A stretch of DNA of 34,060 nucleotides, from positions 1,050,910 through 1,084,969 of the forward strand of contig NC_022444.1 of NCBI RefSeq assembly GCF_000468495.1, written 5' to 3'. Positions 3,303 to 32,341 of this stretch are shown here, piece by piece. Made by a program: the position numbers and the translations under genes. Below the pieces are notes generated by a model. The model searched no databases. It worked only from the letters and a program-made list of their open reading frames with translations, and was not told the DNA's origin. Positions within the stretch are counted from its first letter, which is position 1, and the number at the start of each line of letters is the position of its first letter. Source of the DNA: Megalodesulfovibrio gigas DSM 1382 = ATCC 19364. Lineage in GTDB: Bacteria; Desulfobacterota; Desulfovibrionia; Desulfovibrionales; Desulfovibrionaceae.

Positions 3303-4529
3303 TTGAGCACCACCATAAGCATTGCGAATGAGCCTGCGCGCGCCAGGCTCCTGCGATCCTTTGGCTTTGACAAAACCGCCCCGGTCGTCATCGCCATCGC
3401 CACGTTTTCGGCCATGCACTGTCCACAGCCGCTGTTGCCGCTGTTGCAGCAGGCCTTTGACGTGGAGAAGACTACCGTCTCCCTGGTCACCACAGCCACC
3501 CTCCTGCCCCTGGGGTTGGCGCCCCTGTTTTACGGACTCCTGCTGCGCGCGTTCCCGGCGCACCGGCTGCTGGTGTGGGGCTCGGGCCTGCTCATGGCCG
3601 CCACCCTGGCCCTGAGCATGGCGCCGGACTTCCCCCTGCTCCTGGGCCTGCGGGTAGTGCAGGGCCTGCTGGCGCCGGCGGTACTCACCTCCCTGATGAC
3701 CCTGGCCGGCGCCACCATGCGCGAGCGCCAGGCTGCGGGCATGCTGTCCGAGCATTCCATCGGCCGGGCCATGGCCGTGTATGTGGCGGCCACCATCTTC
3801 GGCGGCTTTTTCGGACGGTTTCTGGCCGGGACGGTGGCGTCTGTGTGGGGCTGGCGCTGGGGGCTGGGAGCTGTTTCCCTGCTGACGGTGGCGGCGTGGC
3901 TCATGGCCCTGGGCATCCCGCGCAGCCGCGGCGGCAGCTTTGCCCGGCTGGAGCTTTCCGCCCTGGCAGAGGTGCTCCGCAAGCCGGGATTCCTGCCGTT
4001 CTTTTGCTTTATTTTTGTGGAATTTTTCATCTTTACCGCGCTGCTGAACCTCCTGCCCTTCCGCATAGCAGAGATTGGCGCCGGCAGCTCCCCGTTTCGC
4101 GTGGCCGTGCTCTATGTTGGATATCTGATCGGCATCCTTATTTCTTTGGCCGCGCCCTGGACGGTGCTGCGTCTGGGCGGTGAGGCGCGCACCGTGCGCC
4201 TGGGGGCACTGGTGCTTCTGCTGTGCGTGCCGCTGTTCCTGGCCACCACCTACGGCTTGACCTTCGTGGCCGTGCTGGTGCTGTGCATCGGCATGTTCCA
4301 GGTGCATTCCGTGCTGCCCGGCTGGCTCAACGAGCTGGGCAGCCAGCAGCGCAGCGTGGTGAACGGGCTCTACCTTTCCTTCTATTATGTGGGCGGCGCG
4401 GCCGGCTCCGCCCTGCCGGCGGTACTGTATCGGCACAGTTCCTGGGCCTGGACCATGGCCGCCCTGGGCGCAATGCAACTGGTCGCCCTGGCCCTGTGCC
4501 TGACCGGCGGACGCCGGACGCCCCCATAA
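3303..4529 (+). CDS. MFS transporter, YnfM-like
   Basis: A 408-aa inner-membrane major facilitator protein with about twelve hydrophobic segments and a central loop near residues 200-215. The first half has the MFS signature RVVQGLLAPA and an arginine/glutamate-rich loop (ATMRERQAAG). The second half has a glycine-rich helix (YYVGGAAGSALPA) as in YnfM-type exporters. The start is TTG at 3303, since GGAGG lies 7 nt upstream (3291-3295) and the protein begins a few residues before the first helix. The ATG at 3296 overlaps the ribosome-binding site in another frame and leads quickly to a stop. The substrate cannot be told from sequence; export of a drug, sugar or small metabolite is the family norm. 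The gene stands alone and is divergent from the zinc-ribbon gene. Confidence 0.88.
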   Translation: MSTTISIANEPARARLLRSFGFDKTAPVVIAIATFSAMHCPQPLLPLLQQAFDVEKTTVSLVTTATLLPLGLAPLFYGLLLRAFPAHRLLVWGSGLLMAATLALSMAPDFPLLLGLRVVQGLLAPAVLTSLMTLAGATMRERQAAGMLSEHSIGRAMAVYVAATIFGGFFGRFLAGTVASVWGWRWGLGAVSLLTVAAWLMALGIPRSRGGSFARLELSALAEVLRKPGFLPFFCFIFVEFFIFTALLNLLPFRIAEIGAGSSPFRVAVLYVGYLIGILISLAAPWTVLRLGGEARTVRLGALVLLLCVPLFLATTYGLTFVAVLVLCIGMFQVHSVLPGWLNELGSQQRSVVNGLYLSFYYVGGAAGSALPAVLYRHSSWAWTMAALGAMQLVALALCLTGGRRTPP

Positions 4530-4544
4530 CAACACCAGGGGGCC

Positions 4545-4571
4545 TTGACCTGGGGCAGATTCTGCTATACA
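4545..4571 (+). promoter_or_regulatory. Possible sigma-70 promoter for greA
   Basis: TTGACC (4545-4550) and TATACA (4566-4571) lie 15 nt apart, which is short of the ideal 17. They sit just after the MFS stop codon and upstream of the leader hairpin at 4625-4650. Transcription from here would give greA a leader of about 105 nt containing that hairpin. Confidence 0.4.
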
Positions 4572-4624
4572 GGGTGACTTCCAACATACCCACCCCAAAC
4601 ACATCGGTCAGGCTCACATCGACT

Positions 4625-4655
4625 GCCGGCGATTCGCCGGCGGTTGATTTTTTTT
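4625..4655 (+). terminator. Terminator-like hairpin in the greA leader
   Basis: GCCGGCG (4625-4631) pairs perfectly with CGCCGGC (4635-4641) around a 3-nt loop and is followed by GGTTGA and a run of eight T (4648-4655). It ends 31 nt before the greA start codon. It may simply terminate the MFS transcript, or attenuate transcription starting at the candidate promoter at 4545-4571. Confidence 0.7.
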
Positions 4656-4686
4656 ATCCACCTGCAGGCATTTCGAGGACGCATCC

Positions 4687-5178
4687 ATGAGCAGCATCCC
4701 CATTTCCAAGGAAGGCTTCAAACGGCTGGAGCAGGAGCTGGAACAGCTCAAGGCGGCTCGGCCGGAAGTGATCCAGGCCATCAAGGAAGCCCGCGAGGAA
4801 GGCGATCTTCGGGAAAACGCCGGGTACGACGCCGCCCGCGAACGCCAGGGCATGATGGAAGCCCGTATCCGCTACATCGAAGGGCGCATGGCCACGGCCA
4901 ACATCATCGACCTCAAGACCATTTTCAGCGAGAAGGTGACCTTCGGCGCCACCGTGGAAATCGAGGATGTGGACACCGGCGACAGCAAGACCTACACCAT
5001 CCTCGGCCCGGACGAAGCGGAACCCACCAAGGGCTCCATCTCCATCCTTTCCCCTGTGGCCCAGGCCCTCATGGGCAAGGAAGAAGGCGACGAAGTGACC
5101 GTGGAAGCGCCCAAGGGCCGCATCCAGTACGAAATCGTCTCCATCAAATACCTGGGCGGCGCGCACGGGCTGAATTAG
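4687..5178 (+). CDS. greA: Transcription elongation factor GreA
   Basis: A 163-aa protein, close to the usual ~158 aa. GreA inserts its coiled coil into the RNA polymerase secondary channel and stimulates cleavage of backtracked RNA. The N-terminal coiled coil carries the family tip motif EEGDLRENAGYDAA, with the two acidic residues at D40 and E43 (D41 and E44 in E. coli). The C-terminal FKBP-like domain follows (GATVEIEDVDTGD, then TYTILGPDEAEP and SPVAQALMGKEEGDEV). The ATG at 4687 has GAGGA 7 nt upstream. The gene is convergent with the Lon-family gene, and the pair is separated by a composite double-hairpin repeat. A terminator-like hairpin lies in its leader. Confidence 0.96.
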   Translation: MSSIPISKEGFKRLEQELEQLKAARPEVIQAIKEAREEGDLRENAGYDAARERQGMMEARIRYIEGRMATANIIDLKTIFSEKVTFGATVEIEDVDTGDSKTYTILGPDEAEPTKGSISILSPVAQALMGKEEGDEVTVEAPKGRIQYEIVSIKYLGGAHGLN

Positions 5179-5376
5179 GGCAATGTACCATTTGAAAAGA
5201 GCTGTCGGGGGAAAACCTTTCTAAAGAAAGACTCTTCCCCCGAACCCCCTTTCCAAAGATTTGTATGGTGATTCAAAGTCACTCTCGAATCTTTGAAGGG
5301 GAGAGCGAGAGAGGGGAGAGCCTTTTGCAAAAGGTTTCCCCTCTCGCAACGTCCTTTTTTAAATCAACATGCTCTA
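5179..5376. repeat. Composite intergenic repeat, copy B, between greA and the Lon-family gene
   Basis: It holds two modules. Module 1 is a hairpin with perfect 9-bp arms TCGGGGGAA (5205-5213) and TTCCCCCGA (5235-5243) plus an inner CTTTCT/AGAAAG stem, followed by a block shared with copy A (5235-5295). Module 2 is a near-perfect palindrome with arms GAGAGGGGA (5309-5317) and TCCCCTCTC (5337-5345) around CCTTTTGCAAAAGG (5321-5334); a related sequence reappears in copy D at the right end of the window. The first 43 nt, read from the greA stop, also match the minus strand after the carboxypeptidase stop (near 29630-29665). The Lon-family stop codon lies inside the shared word GCTCTAGCGG. It probably terminates transcription from both sides. 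Confidence 0.8.
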
Positions 5377-7842
5377 GCGGCTCTTGCCCCGCCCTTCGTA
5401 CTCCCGCGCCGTCTTGGCCAGCGCGGCCAGGCGTTTGTCCACGCGATCATACAGGCTGTCCTTGGTGAAGCCCCCGTCCTTGCGCGGCTTGCCGGCCGGA
5501 ATGCCCGTCAGCAACTCCATGGCTTCCTCAATGGAGGCCACCGCATACACATGGAAGGCCCCGGCGCGCACGGCCTCCAGCACCTCCTCGGACAGCATCA
5601 GGTGCACGATGTTGTCTGCCGGCAGGAGCACGCCCTGGGTGCCTGTGAGGCCACGGCGTTTGCAGACCTTGAAGAAGCCCTCCACCTTGCGCGTGACGCC
5701 GCCCACGGCCAGGATGCCGCCGGACTGGCTCACCGCGCCGGTGAACGCCAGGGAGAGGTTGAGCGGCGCACCAGACAGGGCCGAGAGCAGCGCCGCCAGT
5801 TCCGCACCGGAGGCCGAATCCCCCTCCACATGGGCGTAGCTCTGTTCAAAGCACAGGCTGCCCGTGAGCACCAAGGGCTTATCTTGGGCAAAGAGGGAGA
5901 CGAGGTAGCTCTTCAGAATCATCATGGCCTTGGTGTGGATGGGCCCGCCCAGCTCGGCCTCGCGCTCCAGATCCACGATGCCGCCATGCCCCACGCCCAC
6001 GGTGGCGCTGATCTGATGCGGCAGGCCGATTTCGTAGTCCCCGTACCAGGTGACGGAGAGCCCGTTCACCGTGCCCACGCGCGAGCCTGAGGTGGCCACC
6101 TTGATGAGTTCACGGTCGTACTCTTCCATGAACTCTTCTTCGTACAGATTGGAGCGGTATTCCTTGGCCTGGATGGCCCGGGCCAGGATGGCGCCGTCCA
6201 CCATGGCTGCGCCTTCCATGCGGGCCAGGGCCGAGGCCTCCAGCATGCGTTCGCGCAGCAGCGGCAGCTTGAGGGAGAGCTTTTTCTGGTCCTCGGCCAG
6301 CACGGAGCCGTAATCCACCAGCTGGGCCAGGGCGTGCCGGTCGAAGGGCAGCAGGCCGGCTTCGTGGATGATGCGCCCCAGGCTGCCCAGATACTGCTTG
6401 ATGGTCTTGGCGTCGCGGGGGATGTGCTCCTGCAGGTGCGCCTTGATCTTGAAGAATTTGTGAAAGCGGTCGTCGTGGTGCAGCAGGGCCTCGTAGGCCT
6501 CGTCGCCGCCGATGAGCACAACCTTTACATCCAGCGCCAGGGGTTCGGGTTCGATGGTCTTGGTGCGGACGGTCTCCTGCTGCTCGGCGGGGTCCTCGAT
6601 CTTGGCCAGGCCGGATCTGAGCGCCCGCAGCAGGCCTTCCCAGGCCCCGGCGTGTTGGAGGATGTCCTCCACGTGCAACACCAGAAAGCCGCCCTGGGCC
6701 TTGTGCAACGCGCCGGACTTGATGAGGGAGAAATCCGCCACCAGCGCGCCCATCTCGGCCTCGCGCTCCACGCAGCCCAGCAGGTTGGAGAGGGTGGGAT
6801 GATCCTCGATGACCACCGGCGCGCCCTGGGTATCCGCATTGTCCACGAAGACATTGATTTCGTAGCGCAGGAAAAAGTCTTCCAGGGAGGGCGGCGGCCC
6901 CTCGAAGGCCATGGGGCCGGAGGCGCTGCCAGCCTGGGCCGGCCGTTCCTGCGACCCGCCTTCCCGGGGAGCCACCAGATCCAGATGCTCAATGACATCG
7001 CGGTCGATGCCCTCAAAAAATTCCTGCAGCGCCTTGTTCTTCCACTCTTTTTTGAAGCGATCCCGCAGGGGATGCAGATGTTCGGCCAGCACCTCGCGCA
7101 GGGTGTCTTCATCCAGGGTGCGTTCCCGTTCGCGCACGTCGCGTTCTTCCAGGAACATCTTGCGCATGTGGCCGTTCATGGCGTGCATCAGGGCATCGCT
7201 GCGCTGCTTGATGGTCTTGCGGGTGGTGGGGTCCAGGCGCTGGTATTCGTCCTGGGAAAGGACCTTGCCTTCCATGAGGGGGTAGATGGTGTAGCCGCCC
7301 TCGTCGTCCATGTCCAGGTTGAAGCCCTGGGAGGACGCATCCTGGGCCATCTGCTCCAGCAACTCGTCCCGGGCAATCTGCAGGCCATCGGTGATGGCCT
7401 TGCGCCGGTTGAAGTAGGTCTCGTGCTCGAATTTGGCCGGAACGTCCCGCTTGATGCGCGTGAAGGCCTGGGCCAGCTCCTGCTTGAGGAGCTTGCCGCC
7501 GCCGGGAGGCAGGGCAATGAGCCGAGGCTTGTCCACATCGTCGAAATTGGTGACGTAGATGAGATCCGACGGGGTGGGCCGTTTTTTTGCGTGGGGCGCA
7601 AGGAAATCGCGCACCAGGTAGGTGCGGCCCAGGTTGGCCTCGCCGCACAGGTAGATATTGTACCCGCGGTCGTTGATGGCCAGCCCGAGCTGCATGGCGT
7701 CCAGGGCCCGGGGCTGGGGCCGGGGCTGGGAGTCGGGCAGCCTGGCAACGAGGGAGATGGCGGTGGAGTCGTCGCAGGGGAGCTTGGCAGGATCAAGCCA
7801 GGCACGCAGACGTTCGGCAGGCAAAGGACGAGGCATTGTCAT
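5374..7842 (-). CDS. Lon-family ATP-dependent protease (AAA_32 / YcbZ-LonB-like)
   Basis: An 822-aa protein of the Lon-like group with an atypical ATPase part and a C-terminal Lon protease domain. Near residue 66 the phosphate loop reads GEANLGRTY, with arginine where a classical Walker A has lysine, as is usual for AAA_32 proteins. A Walker B-like segment GGFLVLHVEDIL follows in the middle. The protease domain (about 590-790) has the catalytic serine in EGDSASGAEL and the lysine in GGVTRKVEGFF, so the Ser-Lys dyad is intact. It lacks the N-terminal substrate domain of LonA. Two starts are close together (7842 and 7836); I used the first, which is nearer to AAGGAG 12 nt upstream. It lies 63 nt downstream of the Fur-family gene with no terminator between, so cotranscription is likely. 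Substrates are unknown; degradation of damaged proteins is inference. Confidence 0.9.
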   Translation of the reverse strand: MTMPRPLPAERLRAWLDPAKLPCDDSTAISLVARLPDSQPRPQPRALDAMQLGLAINDRGYNIYLCGEANLGRTYLVRDFLAPHAKKRPTPSDLIYVTNFDDVDKPRLIALPPGGGKLLKQELAQAFTRIKRDVPAKFEHETYFNRRKAITDGLQIARDELLEQMAQDASSQGFNLDMDDEGGYTIYPLMEGKVLSQDEYQRLDPTTRKTIKQRSDALMHAMNGHMRKMFLEERDVRERERTLDEDTLREVLAEHLHPLRDRFKKEWKNKALQEFFEGIDRDVIEHLDLVAPREGGSQERPAQAGSASGPMAFEGPPPSLEDFFLRYEINVFVDNADTQGAPVVIEDHPTLSNLLGCVEREAEMGALVADFSLIKSGALHKAQGGFLVLHVEDILQHAGAWEGLLRALRSGLAKIEDPAEQQETVRTKTIEPEPLALDVKVVLIGGDEAYEALLHHDDRFHKFFKIKAHLQEHIPRDAKTIKQYLGSLGRIIHEAGLLPFDRHALAQLVDYGSVLAEDQKKLSLKLPLLRERMLEASALARMEGAAMVDGAILARAIQAKEYRSNLYEEEFMEEYDRELIKVATSGSRVGTVNGLSVTWYGDYEIGLPHQISATVGVGHGGIVDLEREAELGGPIHTKAMMILKSYLVSLFAQDKPLVLTGSLCFEQSYAHVEGDSASGAELAALLSALSGAPLNLSLAFTGAVSQSGGILAVGGVTRKVEGFFKVCKRRGLTGTQGVLLPADNIVHLMLSEEVLEAVRAGAFHVYAVASIEEAMELLTGIPAGKPRKDGGFTKDSLYDRVDKRLAALAKTAREYEGRGKSR

Positions 7843-17657: not shown

Positions 17658-17679
17658 GGGCATAACCCAGGTTATGCCC
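17658..17679. promoter_or_regulatory. Palindromic upstream activating site
   Basis: GGGCATAACC (17658-17667) and GGTTATGCCC (17670-17679) form a perfect 10-bp inverted repeat with a 2-bp spacer. It is centred about 113 nt upstream of the predicted sigma-54 transcription start, the normal enhancer position for an NtrC-type activator. The same half-site recurs twice at 17736-17768. Confidence 0.65.
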
Positions 17680-17735
17680 CACGGCGGACAATCAGAAAAA
17701 GCATTTAACACCAGATGGTTGCACATGAGCGCGCT

Positions 17736-17768
17736 GGTTATGCCCCTTCCGGCGGTTATGCCCCTTCC
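17736..17768. repeat. Direct repeat carrying the enhancer half-site
   Basis: GGTTATGCCCCTTCC occurs at 17736-17750 and exactly again at 17754-17768, an 18-nt period. The second copy includes the stop codon and last codons of the response-regulator gene, so it may have arisen as a short tandem duplication of the gene's 3' end. Both copies contain the GGTTATGCCC half-site of the palindrome at 17658-17679. Confidence 0.7.
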
Positions 17769-20920: not shown

Positions 20921-21271
20921 TCAGGAGCACCCCTTGCAGCTCTTGCAGCCGCCGGCCTCCAGCTGCAGGCCGGAGCGGATGACAAAGGTCAGCCGGGTGG
21001 CGTCGATGGTCACGGGCATGGCAGTCTGCAGCAGCACGGCGTCCACCACGAAGACGAAGCCGTCGCGCTCAAGACGCATGTCGTTCAGGCCGGGAGGGTT
21101 GCCGCCCGCATCCAGGACTTCATCAAGGCGCAGCTGCAGCCGCGGCCCGGCACAGCCGCCTTCGGCATGCTCCAGGCGGATGCCGGCCTGGGGATGCTGG
21201 CTGAAATAACGCTGCAGCAGGGCCTTGGCGGCGTCGGTCAAAAACAGGGGGTCGCGGGAATCGTCATGCAT
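20921..21271 (-). CDS. IscA/HesB-like protein
   Basis: A 116-aa protein of the A-type Fe-S carrier fold as found in sulfate reducers (start LTDAAKALLQRYF; AEGGCAGPRLQLRLDE; RLTFVIRSGLQLE). The conserved first cysteine is C40. The C terminus has C109, C112 and C115 (CKSCKGCS), a C-x2-C-x2-C tail instead of the C-x-C of IscA. Fe-S or metal binding is plausible but unproven. The ATG at 21271 has GGAG 9 nt upstream and overlaps the end of the SpoIIE-type phosphatase gene by 8 nt; a TTG five codons earlier is less likely. The stop lies 1 nt before the sensor kinase start. Being locked between signalling genes suggests a role in redox or cluster sensing rather than bulk Fe-S assembly, which is inference. 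Confidence 0.8.
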   Translation of the reverse strand: MHDDSRDPLFLTDAAKALLQRYFSQHPQAGIRLEHAEGGCAGPRLQLRLDEVLDAGGNPPGLNDMRLERDGFVFVVDAVLLQTAMPVTIDATRLTFVIRSGLQLEAGGCKSCKGCS

Positions 21272-23231
21272 GGGGCACAGCTCCAACCAGTTTGATGATC
21301 ACTAATGTCACGTCGTCCTGAAAGCGCACGCCTTGGCAGAACCGGCCCACGTCCTGGAACACGGCGTCCACCATGTCCACGGCCGAGGCCCGGCTGTGCC
21401 GGCGCAGCACCTCCTTGAAGCGCTCCTTGCCGTACAGCTGGCCCTGGGTGTCCATGGCCTCCCAGATGCCGTCGGTGCCCACGGCGATGACCATGCCGGG
21501 GCGGATGCTGTCCAGTGTCCTGGACTCGAAGGGATAGTCTTCCACAATGCCCAGAGGCAGGCCGGGGCCGTCCAGCTCGGTAAAGCAGTCCGTCTCCGGA
21601 TCGTAGAGCAGGGCCGGATCGTGCCCGGCGCGCACCCAGCACAGCCGGGTCAGGGCTTCGGGATGGTGCTCGCAACAATTGATGAGCAGTTGAAAGCAGG
21701 TCATGAACCGGCCGGAATCGCCCATGTCCCGCACCAGGGCGCGGTTGAGGTCCATCATCACCTCGGCCAGCTCGCCGGGCAGTTGCACGCGCTGCCGCAG
21801 GAAGGCCCGGGCTGTGGTCATGAGCAGGGCGGCGTCCACGCCATGGCCGGCAATATCCCCCACCACCACGCCCAGCCAGCCGGGATAACTGGCCGGGAGG
21901 TCGAAATAGTCGTAATAGTCGCCGCCGATGCTCTCGCTGGCCGCCATGCGGCCGGCCACTTCCAGGCCGTTCCAGCGGGGCGGGCCACTGGGCAGCAGGC
22001 TGCGCTGCACTTCCTCGGCCAGGGCCAGGGCCTTTTTCTGGGTCGAAATGTCCGTGACAAAGGCAATGTGGTTGAGAAAATTGCCCTCTGGATCGCGCAG
22101 GGTATTGCCATGCACCAGCACCGGCACCACGGTGCCGTCCCTGGCCACCAGGGAGCCTTCGAAGGACCGCCGATCCTGGGCGAGCAGGCGCTTGCGGTTG
22201 GCCACAAGAAAGGCGCGGAACTCCGGGGTGGACCACTCGTGCGGCCGCCGGCCCAGCAGCTCGTGCGGCGAGTAGCCGAGCATGGCGGCGTAGGCCTCAT
22301 TGCAGGAAACCAGCCGCAGTTCCGCATCCATCATGATGAAGCCTTCGGCGGCCGTCTCCAGGATGCGGCGGTGTTTTTCCTCGCTCTTGCGCAAGGCCTC
22401 CTCGGCCCGGACCCGCTCGGTGACATCCGCCAGGACGCCCTGGTAGTGCAGGGGCTCGCCGCGGGCGTCAAAATCCACGGTGGTCACGTCGTCGATCCAC
22501 CGCAATTCCCCCGTGGCGGTGCGGATGCGGTAGCGCATGGCGTACTCGTCCTTGCCGGCCAGCCGGGCGGCGCGAACCTGGCTGACAAGGCTGGCGTGAT
22601 CCTCGGGATGCACGATGTCCAGAAAGGACAAGGTGCCCAGGCGCAGGGCCTCGGGATCGTAGCCGTAGCGCGAGACGTTCTGGGAGACGTACTCCAGCCC
22701 CGTGGCGCCGGCCGTGCGACGAAACAGGATGATGGGACTGCGCTCCACGATGAGATTTGCCTGCCGCAAGGCATCCTCGGCCTGCCGGCGGGCGGTGATG
22801 TCCATGACGATGCCCTGATAATGCGTGATGCGGCCCTGCTCGTCACGCTCGGCCAGGGTCTCGTCATGCACCCAGAACACCTGACCGCCGGGACTCACCA
22901 GGCGGTATTCCTGGGTGTATTCCACCCGCTCCAGCCTGGCATATTCCTTGATTTCCGCAGCCAGACGGTCGCGGTCATCGGGGTGGACGATGTCGGCGAA
23001 TTCGCGGCGGCCTTCCAGAAACTCGCACGCGGCATAGCCGTAGCGGCTGATGTTCTCGGACACGTAGACCAGGCGGTGGGCCTCGTCATTGAGGCGACGA
23101 AAGAGCACGGCCGGGCTTTTTTCCACGATGACCTTGGCCAGGGGCAGCACCTCTGCGCCGGTGCTCTCCGTGGACAACGCCTGCCGGGGGGGGAGACACT
23201 CGGGGACCGGAGCGGAAGAATCTGACGCCAT
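21264..23231 (-). CDS. Triple-PAS SpoIIE-type serine phosphatase
   Basis: A 655-aa, apparently cytoplasmic protein with no signal peptide or membrane segment. Three PAS domains in tandem (about 35-135, 150-265 and 270-390); the first two have PAC motifs ending in D(I/V)T and share the pattern LVYVSENISRYGY / LEYVSQNVSRYGY, so they arose by duplication. The PP2C/SpoIIE domain (about 415-650) has metal-binding motifs GGDYYDYF, GDIAGHGVDAALLM, GTDGIWEA and DDVTLVIIK. Such RsbU-like phosphatases usually act on anti-sigma-factor antagonists; none is encoded nearby. The ATG at 23231 has AGGA about 8 nt upstream; a GTG 15 codons earlier is less likely. It overlaps the HesB-like gene and lies 60 nt after the DUF1566 gene. 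Confidence 0.9.
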   Translation of the reverse strand: MASDSSAPVPECLPPRQALSTESTGAEVLPLAKVIVEKSPAVLFRRLNDEAHRLVYVSENISRYGYAACEFLEGRREFADIVHPDDRDRLAAEIKEYARLERVEYTQEYRLVSPGGQVFWVHDETLAERDEQGRITHYQGIVMDITARRQAEDALRQANLIVERSPIILFRRTAGATGLEYVSQNVSRYGYDPEALRLGTLSFLDIVHPEDHASLVSQVRAARLAGKDEYAMRYRIRTATGELRWIDDVTTVDFDARGEPLHYQGVLADVTERVRAEEALRKSEEKHRRILETAAEGFIMMDAELRLVSCNEAYAAMLGYSPHELLGRRPHEWSTPEFRAFLVANRKRLLAQDRRSFEGSLVARDGTVVPVLVHGNTLRDPEGNFLNHIAFVTDISTQKKALALAEEVQRSLLPSGPPRWNGLEVAGRMAASESIGGDYYDYFDLPASYPGWLGVVVGDIAGHGVDAALLMTTARAFLRQRVQLPGELAEVMMDLNRALVRDMGDSGRFMTCFQLLINCCEHHPEALTRLCWVRAGHDPALLYDPETDCFTELDGPGLPLGIVEDYPFESRTLDSIRPGMVIAVGTDGIWEAMDTQGQLYGKERFKEVLRRHSRASAVDMVDAVFQDVGRFCQGVRFQDDVTLVIIKLVGAVPHA

Positions 23232-23291
23232 GGAAGAATCCTGGTTGCAGGGCGGTGGCTGCGACAATTCTAGCACGCCGGCGACGGGAGC

Positions 23292-24234: not shown

Positions 24235-25056
24235 TCAGGTGGGCAGATCGTCGTCGGTGGGGGCATCGCGCCGGCCCACGCCCGGCAACCGGAAGAACAG
24301 CCGCCGCGGCTTGCCCGGGGGCGGGCCGGGCTGGCCAGGGTGGCCGGATCTGGCGAGGCCGGCGGCGTCCTCCTCCTTGTGCGGCACGCCCAGTTCCTGG
24401 CGCAGCAGAAAGAGGAACCGGGTGCCCAGATCGCCCAGGGCGGCATCCAGATCCGCCAGCCAGCCGAGCAGCATGTTGTGACCGATGGCCGCCGGGATGG
24501 CTACCAGCATGCCGGCAATGGTGGTGCCCAGGGCCTCGGCCAGACCCTTGCCCACAATCTGCAGCGTGCCGGGATTCAGCTCGGCGAATCCCTGGAAGGA
24601 ATGGAAAATCCCCCAGACCGTGCCGAACAGCCCCAGAAGCGGCGCGGCGCTGGCACACATGGCCAGAAAATTCAGGGACACGGCCAGACGGGCGATCTGG
24701 GCGGCCTGCTCGTCCCGCAGGCCCCAGCGGACGTTCTCCAGGATGATGCGCGCCACTTCGCCGGGGGAGGCTTCCAGCTTTTCCAACTGCTTGTATTCGT
24801 GCACGGCCTCGCGGACCACGGCCAGGGAGGGGGAGTCCCTGTCCCGGCCCACGGCCTGCACGGCCTCGGGCAGTCGTGCAGCCCGACGAAAGACCGTCAG
24901 ATCGCGCCGAATCTGCCGGCCGGCCCGGCCATACTGCCGGATCTTCCAGAACATCGCGGCCCAGGATCCCAGGCTCATGCCCAGGAGCAGCAGATATTCC
25001 GCCTGGACCACCAGCGTGGATCCGGCCACATGTGTCAGCAGATCGAATTGCGCCAT
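24235..25056 (-). CDS. MotA/TolQ/ExbB-family proton channel protein
   Basis: A 273-aa inner-membrane protein. One membrane segment near residues 15-35, a long cytoplasmic helical loop (about 40-125), then the paired core helices of the family (AAPLLGLFGTVWGIFHSF and LGTTIAGMLVAIPAAI), the part that forms the proton path with a TolR/ExbD partner. The C-terminal tail is long and Gly/Pro/basic. The ATG at 25056 directly precedes the family N terminus; the Shine-Dalgarno is weak, so the start is less certain. No ExbD/TolR gene lies in the window. It heads the run of six minus-strand genes. An extended -10 (TGGTATGAT, minus strand, about 25216-25224) may be the promoter. TGTGCA-type sites lie 55-130 bp upstream. 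Confidence 0.85.
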   Translation of the reverse strand: MAQFDLLTHVAGSTLVVQAEYLLLLGMSLGSWAAMFWKIRQYGRAGRQIRRDLTVFRRAARLPEAVQAVGRDRDSPSLAVVREAVHEYKQLEKLEASPGEVARIILENVRWGLRDEQAAQIARLAVSLNFLAMCASAAPLLGLFGTVWGIFHSFQGFAELNPGTLQIVGKGLAEALGTTIAGMLVAIPAAIGHNMLLGWLADLDAALGDLGTRFLFLLRQELGVPHKEEDAAGLARSGHPGQPGPPPGKPRRLFFRLPGVGRRDAPTDDDLPT

Positions 25057-25110: not shown

Positions 25111-25186
25111 CGTGCAGCCCTGCCGCCCTGTGCAGCCGCATGCGCCATGCCTTGCACACCGCCGCGCATGTGCAGCCCTTTGCACA
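25111..25186. promoter_or_regulatory. Cluster of five TGTGCA-type sites
   Basis: CGTGCAG (25111), TGTGCAG (25129), TTGCACA (25152), TGTGCAG (25169) and TTGCACA (25180) fall within 76 bp. The last two form a perfect palindrome TGTGCA-N6-TGCACA at 25169-25186. The cluster lies about 80-150 nt upstream of the transcription start predicted from the sigma-54 promoter at 25238, the usual enhancer position. It also lies between the TolQ-like gene and the EF-hand gene, so it could serve either. Confidence 0.55.
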
Positions 25187-25237
25187 CCCCCGGCTAAATC
25201 TCGCAGAAAAAACCTATCATACCAGATGTTTACCTTG

Positions 25238-25253
25238 TGGCATCGATGTTGCT
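25238..25253 (+). promoter_or_regulatory. Sigma-54 (-24/-12) promoter of the EF-hand gene
   Basis: TGGCATCGATGTTGCT matches the consensus TGGCAC-N5-TTGCT at every conserved position except the sixth, with GG and GC correctly spaced. The predicted start near 25264 gives a 33-nt leader with AGGAG before the ATG at 25297. The TGTGCA cluster lies upstream. Confidence 0.8.
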
Positions 25254-25296
25254 TCAGCCTGACATCGTCAACCTCTTTGCATGGCAGGAGTCACCC

Positions 25297-25590
25297 ATGA
25301 GCAACATCGCCATCATCCTCATCATTCTTGCCGCCATGATCATCGCTGCCCCGGTGGCTGCGCAGCCGGGCGCAGGCATGTCCCGCGGCCAGGAATTCAT
25401 CTTCCGCAAAATGGACACGAACCGCGACGGCACGGTGGATCAGCAGGAATATCAGGCAGCCATGCAGGAACGGTTCAACCAGACCGACGCCAACCACGAC
25501 GGCGTGCTGACCCAGGAAGAGATGGCCGCGCGCATGACCCAGCTGCAGGAACTGCGGCGCATGCGGCAGCAGGGCGGGGGGGCGGAATAG
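25297..25590 (+). CDS. Exported EF-hand calcium-binding protein
   Basis: A 97-aa protein. An N-terminal hydrophobic stretch ending AAPVAAQP (residues 1 to about 23) is a likely signal peptide. Two canonical EF-hand loops follow: DTNRDGTVDQQE and DANHDGVLTQEE, both with D-x-N-x-D-G and the final glutamate, so calcium binding is well supported. The tail is helical and Gln/Arg-rich (MRQQGGGAE). The ATG at 25297 has AGGAG 6-7 nt upstream. A sigma-54 promoter precedes it, which is unusual for so small a gene. Its stop lies 3 bp from the stop of the convergent Cys-rich gene. A periplasmic calcium buffer or sensor is inference. Confidence 0.85.
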   Translation: MSNIAIILIILAAMIIAAPVAAQPGAGMSRGQEFIFRKMDTNRDGTVDQQEYQAAMQERFNQTDANHDGVLTQEEMAARMTQLQELRRMRQQGGGAE

Positions 25591-25890: not shown

Positions 25891-27084
25891 CTATGCCCCT
25901 TCCCTGCCCAGGGGCAGGACTTCCGGGGCCACGAAGCGTCCCTGACACACCGCGCCGATGCGCTCGCCGGACGGGTTGCCATACGGTGAGAGGGTGAACA
26001 CGTACCAGCCGGCGTTGCCCGCCAGCAGCAACCGCACCTGGCGCATCTGGCCATCCTGCACGAACCGGGAGAACACGGCGTCCCAGGCCTTGCGGCTGCG
26101 TGGGGCCAGCAGTTCCGAAAACGCCCTGTTGGCCAGCCCGCAGGGGGCCGGCACGCCCATGGCCTTGCACAGGGCAAGGTTGCCCAGGATGACATGCTGC
26201 TCGTCGTCCACCAGGGCCACGGGATCCGGCAGGGCGTCCAGGGTCTGGCGCAGCAGGTGCAGGGTGACGTCGCGTTCCAGCTCGGCATCCTTGCGGGCGG
26301 TGATGTTGATGACAAACCCTTCCACCAGCGGCTCACCGACGGCATCCGCCGTCAGGGCTGCCTGTTCCTGGATCCAGAAGATGTCGCCATCGCGGCCGTA
26401 GACCTCGGACTCGAAATCCCGCACTTCCCCCACGGTGTGCAGCAGCCGGGTGAACTCCTCCCGCCGCGTGTCGTCCACATACAGCTGGGCCGCCGGATTG
26501 GTCATGGCCGCCAGCAGTTCCTCGGGGGAATCATAGCCCAGCATCCGCGCCAGGGCCGGATTCACCGTCACGAGGCCGCCGCCGAGCCGGGCCTGGTAGA
26601 TGCCCACAGGCGCATCCTGCACCAGGGCCTGGTAGCGGCGGTCGCTGGCTGCCAGCCGCTGTTCCAGGCGTCGCCGCTGGACGCAGATATGCATGTTGGC
26701 GGACAAATCCGCAAATTTGACCGGTTTTTGGATAAAACAGTCCGCCACGGGCAGGGCCCGTTCCATCTGTTCGTACGGCTCCATGCCAGTGAGGAACATG
26801 ATGCTCATGCCCCGTGTCGCGGCGCTGGTCCGCAGGCGGTGGGCCACTTCCAGCCCGTCCATATCGCCTTCCAAACGGACATCCAGCAGCACCATGTCCG
26901 GCAGGTGCTCCGCCGCCAAAGCCAGGGCTTGTTCCCCCGTGGCCGCCACCCCCACCAGTTCGTGCCCCAATCGCTTCAGCATGAAGCCGATGGTCTTCGC
27001 CGAAATGGAATCGTCTTCTACCAGCAACAGCCGGTACTGTTCTGATTGATTGCCCATAGATTCGCTCAGTGTCATGCCCCCCAT
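25891..27084 (-). CDS. Response regulator with two PAS domains, no classical output domain
   Basis: A 397-aa protein. The receiver domain (about 15-135) has the acidic residues EDD, phospho-acceptor D in VLLDVRLEGD and conserved K in IQKPVKF. A first PAS/PAC (about 145-270, with ARMLGYDSPEEL and GFVINITARKD) and a second, more degenerate PAS (about 275-390) follow. There is no kinase, GGDEF, EAL or DNA-binding domain, so it may act by protein contact with an orphan kinase or be a phosphate sink. ATGs at 27084, 27075 and 27057 are all possible; a CATAAT -10-like sequence just upstream of 27084 argues for 27057 or 27075. It is divergent from the MscS gene and followed closely by the Cys-rich gene. 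Confidence 0.85.
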   Translation of the reverse strand: MGGMTLSESMGNQSEQYRLLLVEDDSISAKTIGFMLKRLGHELVGVAATGEQALALAAEHLPDMVLLDVRLEGDMDGLEVAHRLRTSAATRGMSIMFLTGMEPYEQMERALPVADCFIQKPVKFADLSANMHICVQRRRLEQRLAASDRRYQALVQDAPVGIYQARLGGGLVTVNPALARMLGYDSPEELLAAMTNPAAQLYVDDTRREEFTRLLHTVGEVRDFESEVYGRDGDIFWIQEQAALTADAVGEPLVEGFVINITARKDAELERDVTLHLLRQTLDALPDPVALVDDEQHVILGNLALCKAMGVPAPCGLANRAFSELLAPRSRKAWDAVFSRFVQDGQMRQVRLLLAGNAGWYVFTLSPYGNPSGERIGAVCQGRFVAPEVLPLGREGA

Positions 27085-31501: not shown

Positions 31502-32341
31502 TTAGCGGGAGATCCAGACTGTGGCCGGGGGCGCGGTCTGGATGAGATCGCTGGACACGGAGCCGAAGAACAGTTTGCGCAGGGCGCCGCCGCCGGCGCC
31601 GGTGCGGCCCATGGCGATGACGGCGTAGCCGCCGGCCTGCAGTTCCGCGCGCAGGGCCCGGGCGGGGGAATCGCCTTGCAGTCGCTTGTCGTGAATCATG
31701 TGCGCCGGCACGCCGTGTTGCTCCAGAATTTCCCTGCACCGTGCGAAGAGGGTTTCCACCTCCGGGCGCTGGCCGTTTTCCACGCAGCACAGGGTGATGG
31801 GATGCTCGTGATGGCCGGCAAGCACAAAGCCGGCATGGTCCACGATGCGCAAGGACTGCTCGGAACCGTCCACGCAGCACAGCACGCCCGTGCGCGAGGC
31901 CTCGGGCATGCGGCACAGCCACAGGGGAAAGGAAATGCGTTCCTCCAGGATCTCGTGGCTGATGGAGGACCCCATGAAGGCCTCGAAGCTGGTGATGCCC
32001 CGGCGGCCGAGCACCACGGCGTCGTAACGGCCGCGGCTGGCCTCGTCCACAATCTCCATGGCTCTGGACTGGCGCTGGGTCATGGTCTTGATGTGCAGAT
32101 GCTCCGCGGGCCAGCCCATATGGTGGAGCTTGTCCCGGGCGGCCTCCAGGGCGGCGGTGCCCTTGGCCAGTTCCCGGGCATCGGGCTTGATCATGGCCGT
32201 GGGGCTGTCGTGGTCGCGTGGGGCCACATAGAACAGCGTGCACTCCAGGCCGTCCTTGCGATGAAAGAAATGCCCAAGAAAGCGGATGGCGTGCATGGCC
32301 TGGGGATCGTCGCTGACGGTGACGAGAAAGTGCCGGTTCAT
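31502..32341 (-). CDS. Tandem universal stress protein
   Basis: A 279-aa protein with two UspA units. The first (about 1-140) ends VVLGRRGITSFEAFMGSSISHEIL, and the second (about 150-279) ends VIAMGRTGAGGGALRKLFFGSVSSDLI. Both keep the G-x2-G-x9/10-G-S nucleotide-binding pattern approximately, so ATP binding is plausible. The ATG at 32341 has GGAG 8 nt upstream; the longer frame to 32425 has no such site. It is the first gene of a four-gene run to 29661. A -24/-12-like sequence at 32369-32384 and a TTGCCC-N17-TACATA pair further upstream are alternative promoters. Confidence 0.88.
   Translation of the reverse strand: MNRHFLVTVSDDPQAMHAIRFLGHFFHRKDGLECTLFYVAPRDHDSPTAMIKPDARELAKGTAALEAARDKLHHMGWPAEHLHIKTMTQRQSRAMEIVDEASRGRYDAVVLGRRGITSFEAFMGSSISHEILEERISFPLWLCRMPEASRTGVLCCVDGSEQSLRIVDHAGFVLAGHHEHPITLCCVENGQRPEVETLFARCREILEQHGVPAHMIHDKRLQGDSPARALRAELQAGGYAVIAMGRTGAGGGALRKLFFGSVSSDLIQTAPPATVWISR

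Follow-up and report, generated by a model that had tools for sequence, protein, structure and literature searches.

The EF-hand gene and its upstream region

The window, which is the whole stretch of DNA that was analysed, comprises 34,060 nucleotides of the 3.80-Mb genome of Megalodesulfovibrio gigas DSM 1382 = ATCC 19364 (G000:C2:1050910-1084969, G000 denoting this genome). An earlier note on this DNA had described a small EF-hand gene, which is borne out as a forward-strand open reading frame (ATG at 25297 to TAG ending at 25590) coding for a 97 amino acid protein with Pfam EF-hand matches. Two EF-hand loops are encoded on the same strand, namely DTNRDGTVDQQE (residues 40-51; 25414-25449) and, 12 residues past it, DANHDGVLTQEE (residues 64-75; 25486-25521). 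The canonical loop pattern D-x-[DN]-x-D-G-x-[ILV]-x-x-x-E is present and the match to PF00036 scores 45.1 bits against a cut-off of 25.4. The Pfam matches are confined to EF-hand families and one marginal SPARC calcium-binding match, so that the product lacks the Metal_resist domain (PF13801) of ZraP. Its N-terminus is hydrophobic (residues 4-22) and ends in VAAQ, which by eye suggests a signal peptide and probable export. A single-sequence AlphaFold model of the protein is poor (pLDDT 64; pTM 0.26). The sequence AGGAG at 25286-25290 on the forward strand, identified by eye, is the likely ribosome-binding site.

A MotA/TolQ/ExbB-family gene (tolQ) is located divergently on the minus strand (24235-25056), with its ATG at 25056 chosen by eye from a block conserved in the second genome of the genus, G001. 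Two further minus-strand genes near the EF-hand locus encode a PAS-SpoIIE phosphatase-type protein (21264-23276) and a response regulator with PAS domains for which Pfam recognizes no other output domain (25891-27084).

The intergenic region was previously said to contain five TGTGCA sites. Four are exact copies of TGTGCA or its complement, starting at 25129, 25153 (as TGCACA), 25169 and 25181 (as TGCACA), while the fifth, CGTGCA at 25111-25116 on the forward strand, agrees in five of six bases and falls in a gap of the G001 alignment. The exact half-sites are arranged as two putative operators. The distal one, TGTGCA-N6-TGCGCC-N6-TGCACA (25129-25158, forward strand), carries half-sites at 12-bp steps and amounts to a TGTGCA-N18-TGCACA pair. 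The proximal operator (25169-25186, strand-neutral) is the perfect TGTGCA-N6-TGCACA palindrome already noted, TGTGCAGCCCTTTGCACA, and a scan of the whole 3.80 Mb turns up no second exact copy. Relative to the ATG, the exact half-sites are 111-168 nt upstream, and the 80-150 nt given before fits only if distances are counted from an inferred transcription start near 25264. Sigma-54 promoter geometry places transcription initiation about 12 nt after the -12 GC, which yields this start (25264, forward strand). Another motif alluded to in the earlier note, GGTTATGCCC, occurs as four exact sites (one inverted) within 106 bp at 17658-17763, with a one-mismatch site at 31991.

A predicted sigma-54 promoter, TGGCATCGATGTTGCT, is located at 25238-25253 on the forward strand, with GG at -24, GC at -12 and 10 bp between them. 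The palindrome ends 51 bp before the -24 box, a distance within the 50-64 bp by which operators usually precede it in ZraR-type regulons, and its conserved position would supply the upstream activator site of a sigma-54 promoter. Region 25129-25253 is probably a ZraR-type regulatory unit made up of an enhancer and a sigma-54 promoter.

Statistical support and conservation in the genus

The window was scanned for -24/-12 sites (TGGCACRN4TTGCW with a GG/GC core and at most two mismatches), using 200 dinucleotide shuffles as control. Five sites were found, all with two mismatches and including TGGCATCGATGTTGCT, against a shuffle mean of 8.2. The promoter had been called the best match in the window; it is among the top sites, with four others its equal. 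Since the count is no better than that of the shuffles, the box is not evidence by itself. TGTGCA is likewise not enriched across the window (19 observed; 24.5 expected). Four of these 19 sites, however, lie within 52 bp start to start (58 bp overall), for which random placement gives P ~7e-5, and the exact palindrome appeared in just 1 of the 200 shuffled windows. Furthermore, the combined pattern TGTGCA-N60..90-TGGCA-N7-TGCW has one match per genome in G000 and G001, in both cases at the EF-hand gene. The box is unremarkable singly and the arrangement is beyond chance.

The strongest and decisive argument for a real element is its conservation in G001, whose EF-hand orthologue is 72% identical. 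The G001 palindrome TGTGCAGTCTCGTGCACA and promoter TGGCAGTGTTGTTGCA show the same distances as in the window, 51 bp between them and 43 bp from promoter to ATG, while the spacers have diverged, with 17/51 and 15/43 positions in agreement (34/51 and 28/43 differ). Conservation is poorer at the distal sites: in G001 a palindrome with two mismatches precedes the main one by 30 bp, against 40 bp for the distal pair of the window. That the half-site cluster and the -24/-12 match are both accidental is barely credible; the match singly is expected by chance, but the arrangement has been conserved despite the diverged spacers and co-occurs once per genome.

The TGTGCA sites could instead serve tolQ, for instance as repressor sites, the -24/-12 match being incidental or secondary. 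A sigma-70-like site with an extended -10 (25216-25243, minus strand) does face tolQ and overlaps the sigma-54 box, and would set the palindrome just downstream of the tolQ transcription start. By eye, however, this site is not kept in G001, whereas a block nearer to tolQ is; the distance from palindrome to -24 box is conserved exactly, and outside the genus these operators are found ahead of zraP-like or zraS genes, with comparable gaps. We consider this explanation quite improbable, while tolQ may possibly be a second target of the operators, additional to the EF-hand gene.

TGTG-N10-CACA resembles CRP/FNR operators in shape, and a CRP/FNR-type or similar homodimeric regulator could occupy the palindromes of a sigma-70-dependent gene. 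No sigma-70-like promoter was found on the forward strand between 25040 and 25700, the -24/-12 box is conserved and the operator goes with ZraR genes, which leaves such a regulator very improbable next to sigma-54-dependent control of the EF-hand gene.

Candidate activator and regulon within the genome

The earlier note expected sigma-54 control by a different activator encoded outside the window, and the genome supports this with a candidate, the predicted ZraR orthologue (G000:C2:2050042-2051454), about 0.97 Mb from the EF-hand gene. When the regulator of one locus with a ZraP-like gene (L064, genome G137) was used as query, each of five other genomes contained one protein sharing 63-69% identity and all others shared at most 47%; the G000 orthologue is 63% identical to the G137 protein and the next enhancer-binding protein (EBP) of G000 47%. 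It combines a receiver, a Sigma54_activat and a Fis-type helix-turn-helix domain, and its gene is located behind a HisKA/HATPase kinase gene (zraS). Within this locus (L104; kinase 4196-6049, regulator 6049-7485) a one-mismatch operator, TGTGCAACGCCTTGCACG (4092-4109), lies directly 5′ of zraS and had been found before the operon was recognized. The genome hence holds a zraSR-like pair with an operator of its own; zraS itself has a weak promoter (3 mismatches; operator gap 65). The sigma-54 gene rpoN is also present (PF04552 at G000:C2:2515768-2516244), while no RpoN turned up in genome G001, which is 87% complete. The regulator attains 400.3 of the 760 bits required by the NCBIfam ZraR equivalog model (NF007689), and is therefore named 'ZraR-type' here; the AtoC and NtrC models outscore the ZraR model, also below their own cut-offs. 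Taken together, the proposal that the missing activator is a ZraR-type regulator encoded outside the window is well supported by sequence comparison.

A second kinase-EBP pair of this genome (L075; G000:C2:1120000-1139000) was set aside as a different subfamily (44-47% identity to ZraR proteins). It is divergent from a weak, Met/Gly-rich Metal_resist-like gene, as is its counterpart in G001 (L074), and no operator-promoter pair was found when these two loci were searched for one.

A genome scan for further promoters bearing the palindrome had been proposed as a route to the regulon and its activator. Nineteen places in G000 carry the palindrome with at most one mismatch, three with a sigma-54-like site 30-110 bp downstream and 16 without. 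The three comprise the EF-hand gene, zraSR with its weak promoter, and one unconvincing site. A ZraP-like gene with a Pfam Metal_resist match (C2, ~1.909 Mb) has a good promoter, TGGCACGACACCTGCT, and a degenerate operator, GGCGCA-N6-TGCACA, two mismatches off and 62 bp from the promoter; by eye, its G001 counterpart is similar, with an operator no better. With those of zraSR and the ZraP-like gene one and two mismatches off, the operator of the EF-hand gene is the strongest of the three. TGCACA-anchored patterns gave six matches in G000, four of which were set aside by eye as coding-like, the remaining promoters being those of the EF-hand and ZraP-like genes.

Association of the operator with ZraR loci in the Desulfovibrionales

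The strict operator-plus-promoter pattern occurs in seven of 149 genomes of the family, namely G000, G001, G039 (L031), G016 (L032), G137 (L033), G069 and G043 (L030, L036). It precedes a ZraP-like gene in L031; L033 was read and no target gene was found there. In L032 (G016:C39, ~336.5 kb, minus strand) the interval between what by eye are a hemerythrin-like and a MacB/LolD-like ABC ATPase gene holds a pair of exact palindromes and additional half-sites; the -24/-12 box there, TGGACCTGTTTTTGCT, is weak, with 3 mismatches, 61 bp past the nearer palindrome.

Searching six genomes for Metal_resist (ZraP) proteins returned 24 loci, nine of which combine operator and promoter, five with a 62-bp gap. 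Weak pairs in L036, L039 and on the plus strand of L041 and L045 were dropped from this reading as not credible. The Metal_resist gene is followed by genes for a histidine kinase and an enhancer-binding response regulator in three genomes (L063, L064, L067), and Pfam places Metal_resist above the cut-off for L031, L042 and L168. One of these genomes shows an additional arrangement (L067; G010:C49, minus strand, from about position 1471 downwards), where an exact operator precedes genes for an FtrD-like protein (PF10080) and an FtsX/MacB-like permease, with AGGCACAAATCCTGCT 51 bp downstream of it. These genes are a probable further ZraR-type target, perhaps for metal transport.

The association was examined on a larger sample obtained by receiver-domain alignment, comprising at least 71 loci, 49 of which were taken as Desulfovibrionales ZraR loci, four of these bearing only delta- or proteobacterial names. 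The G001 locus (L137) was excluded because the region upstream of its zraSR genes, with the promoter, is lost beyond a contig end, leaving 48. In L138 and L174 (genomes G010 and G039), which are among the 48, the motif had already been seen beforehand. Forty-four other response-regulator loci served as controls: 22 EBP paralogues (L082-L103) and 22 further loci (L182-L185, L188-L196, L198-L199, L201-L207). Among the matches listed, the 48 ZraR loci (480 kb) contain 11 exact palindromes against none in the 44 controls (337 kb), and 31 palindromes with at most one mismatch, exact ones included, against two. The same 48 loci, among the matches listed, hold no copy of the backwards pattern, while the everted arrangement is found once exactly and four times with at most one mismatch. 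Fifteen of the 48 ZraR loci among the matches listed combine an operator with a promoter at 45-70 bp, as against 0/44 controls.

Among the matches listed, an operator lies upstream of ZraR in 22 of the 33 loci with at least 4.2 kb of upstream sequence and in two of the 15 shorter ones, and downstream of it in none of the 48. One of the 22, L152, has a one-mismatch copy far from any promoter that is probably a stray. No operator with up to one mismatch was found in 11 of the 33 long loci among the matches listed, five of which are Desulfonatronum, Desulfonatronospira, Desulfonatronovibrio or order-level records and six named Desulfovibrio.

Varying the spacer from 0 to 20 gives a sharp peak at N6 (11 exact) in the ZraR loci among the matches listed. 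A second group, TGTGCA-N16..18-TGCACA, is found in 13/48 loci among the matches listed; the distal operator of the window is of this form, and by eye most copies have a third half-site mid-way. The copy in L158 sits beyond the regulator. Five ZraR loci among the matches listed (L138, L152, L155, L169 and L174) share the 30-bp distal form, its outer half-sites intact. Gaps between operator and promoter (21 pairs in 17 loci among the matches listed) fall at 50-53 bp in seven pairs and 60-64 bp in nine, together 16/21; the two classes are one helical turn apart, and the 51 bp of the window belongs to the former. The first open reading frame past the operator, judged by eye in 23 loci among the matches listed, is ZraP-like in 15 and a kinase in six; in L138 an extra small reading frame precedes the ZraP-like one, and in L165 the first is ambiguous. 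Four loci (L139, L140, L142 and L144) have an unusual promoter before zraS, the operator being followed by TTGGCACG(A/G)(G/C)GTTTTCATGC with no GC at the usual distance from GG.

These data bear on the alternative that the sigma-54 promoter responds to another EBP of overlapping specificity, alone or besides ZraR. EBPs are numerous in G000 (147 first-look candidates, an upper bound), and in Desulfovibrio vulgaris, going by the available portions of two reports, several motif groups combine TGT and ACA half-sites, groups with a distance of 12 bp between the two exist, envelope stress is the category of both DVU1419 and DVU3381 (PMC4641369), and DVU3384 is targeted both by DVU3381 and, additionally, by DVU0621 (PMC4641369, PMC3333781), so that one small stress gene may have several activators. 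Set against this are the 22 EBP paralogues, in that neither the exact palindrome nor the operator-promoter arrangement occurs in the 44 control loci that include them, and the distinctness of the ZraR orthologue in five genomes besides that of the query. An activator other than the ZraR-type regulator is improbable on this evidence.

Distribution of the EF-hand protein

Relatives of the EF-hand protein at E 1e-4 are present in 54/297 genomes of the order; a genome-contig scan with the protein as query returned no relative. The palindrome, allowing one mismatch, was absent from all 43 EF-hand-relative loci searched, a part of all matches (27 from the order-wide search for relatives and 16 from another search, genus paralogues included). 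Conversely, a regular expression for EF loops found none in the 49 ZraR loci among the matches listed, nor in L104, L061 and L073; both are simple motif scans, which degenerate cases can escape. As none of the 43 loci has the operator, the link between EF-hand protein and ZraR is confined, among the loci scanned, to this gene in this genus (2/2 genomes). The earlier note had called sigma-54 control of an exported EF-hand protein unexpected. Exported stress proteins under ZraR-type sigma-54 control are known, ZraP being one, and what stands of the remark is that, of all loci scanned, only those of this genus have an EF-hand protein in this position.

Proposed function within a ZraSR-type regulon

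The operator, the promoter, their conserved geometry, the association of the operator with ZraR loci and the presence of rpoN and zraSR make it likely, by sequence comparison, that a ZraSR-type, sigma-54-dependent regulon for envelope or metal stress includes the EF-hand gene. The signalling pair would consist of the membrane histidine kinase ZraS and of ZraR, at once response regulator and enhancer-binding protein, with the genes of both lying elsewhere on the chromosome. ZraR would bind the operators at 25129-25158 and 25169-25186 and contact sigma-54 RNA polymerase poised at 25238-25253, leading to the open complex. The EF-hand protein would then be produced under envelope or periplasm stress, the signal probably being a metal, and after export may bind calcium or some other cation in the periplasm. 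By analogy with ZraP of related regulons it may have a protective role.

The type of control is known and the EF-hand effector is new; with an EF-hand gene apparently under ZraP-type control, a novel type of effector seems to have entered the regulon. We offer as speculation, with a small chance of being correct, that this minimal two-EF-hand protein supplements ZraP in the regulon, buffers or senses a non-calcium metal (trivalent or heavy) in the periplasm and feeds back on ZraS. If so, it would be a metal-responsive EF-hand effector outside the methylotrophs, and one under sigma-54 control. The analysis provides a candidate operator at the level of letters for ZraR-type regulators of the Desulfovibrionales, and would give a previously unassigned EF-hand gene from a model sulfate reducer its place in a regulon for envelope or metal stress. 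Should this hold, effectors of ZraSR would be exchangeable between a ZraP-like chaperone and an EF-hand protein, and what ZraSR senses and protects would become testable through a small soluble protein.

Comparison with known systems

The top-scoring solved relatives of the EF-hand protein are lanmodulins (whole-sequence E ~1e-11, in two gap-free stretches). Both are small, the protein studied here is probably exported as well, and it aligns without gaps to both lanmodulin EF pairs. According to the available part of PMC10232371, 12 residues between EF loops are a hallmark of lanmodulin, as opposed to ~25 in typical calcium-responsive proteins. The spacing of 12 in the EF-hand protein lies within the 12-13 residues between adjacent EF hands that characterize lanmodulins. 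Lanmodulins, however, have four EF hands where this protein has two, and a proline as the second loop residue of one or more EF hands, where the two loops studied here have T and A. The lanmodulin NCBIfam model scores 39.7 bits against a cut-off of 135, and another EF-hand family model 36.5, also below its own cut-off. As four EF hands and the position-2 proline are missing, the protein is not a lanmodulin; its lanmodulin-like loop spacing makes it a candidate for work on metal selectivity outside the methylotrophs. Titles and abstract openings of the literature on EF-hand proteins and sigma-54, ZraR or lanmodulin in Desulfovibrio contained nothing on the EF-hand gene.

Within the order, a close described system is DVU3381 of D. 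vulgaris Hildenborough, a sigma-54 response regulator which, in the portions available, is listed under 'Envelope stress response' with the targets DVU3382-DVU3381 and DVU3384 (PMC4641369) and was tested by EMSA on a predicted motif (PMC3333781). The main text of PMC4641369 mentions neither 'EF-hand' nor 'calcium'. DVU3381 is likewise a two-component response regulator with GAFTGA that, as far as these sources extend, acts on its own operon and on a single small gene close by; the likeness extends to targets, architecture and TGT/ACA class. A similar situation is seen in Nitratidesulfovibrio liaohensis (L139) and Desulfovibrio sp. (L140, L142, L144), where a palindrome no more than one mismatch off stands before the kinase gene.

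Another close parallel is E. coli ZraSR-ZraP. The sigma-54-dependent ZraR, whose direct targets are zraP, zraSR and mgtA, is discussed as an envelope-stress regulator in the available part of PMC7657598. Regulator architecture, an autoregulated kinase-regulator pair and an exported stress effector are features common to both systems; the G000 regulator matches the NCBIfam ZraR model among other EBP models. The M. gigas system differs from that of E. coli in its effector, which is an EF-hand protein besides a ZraP-like one.
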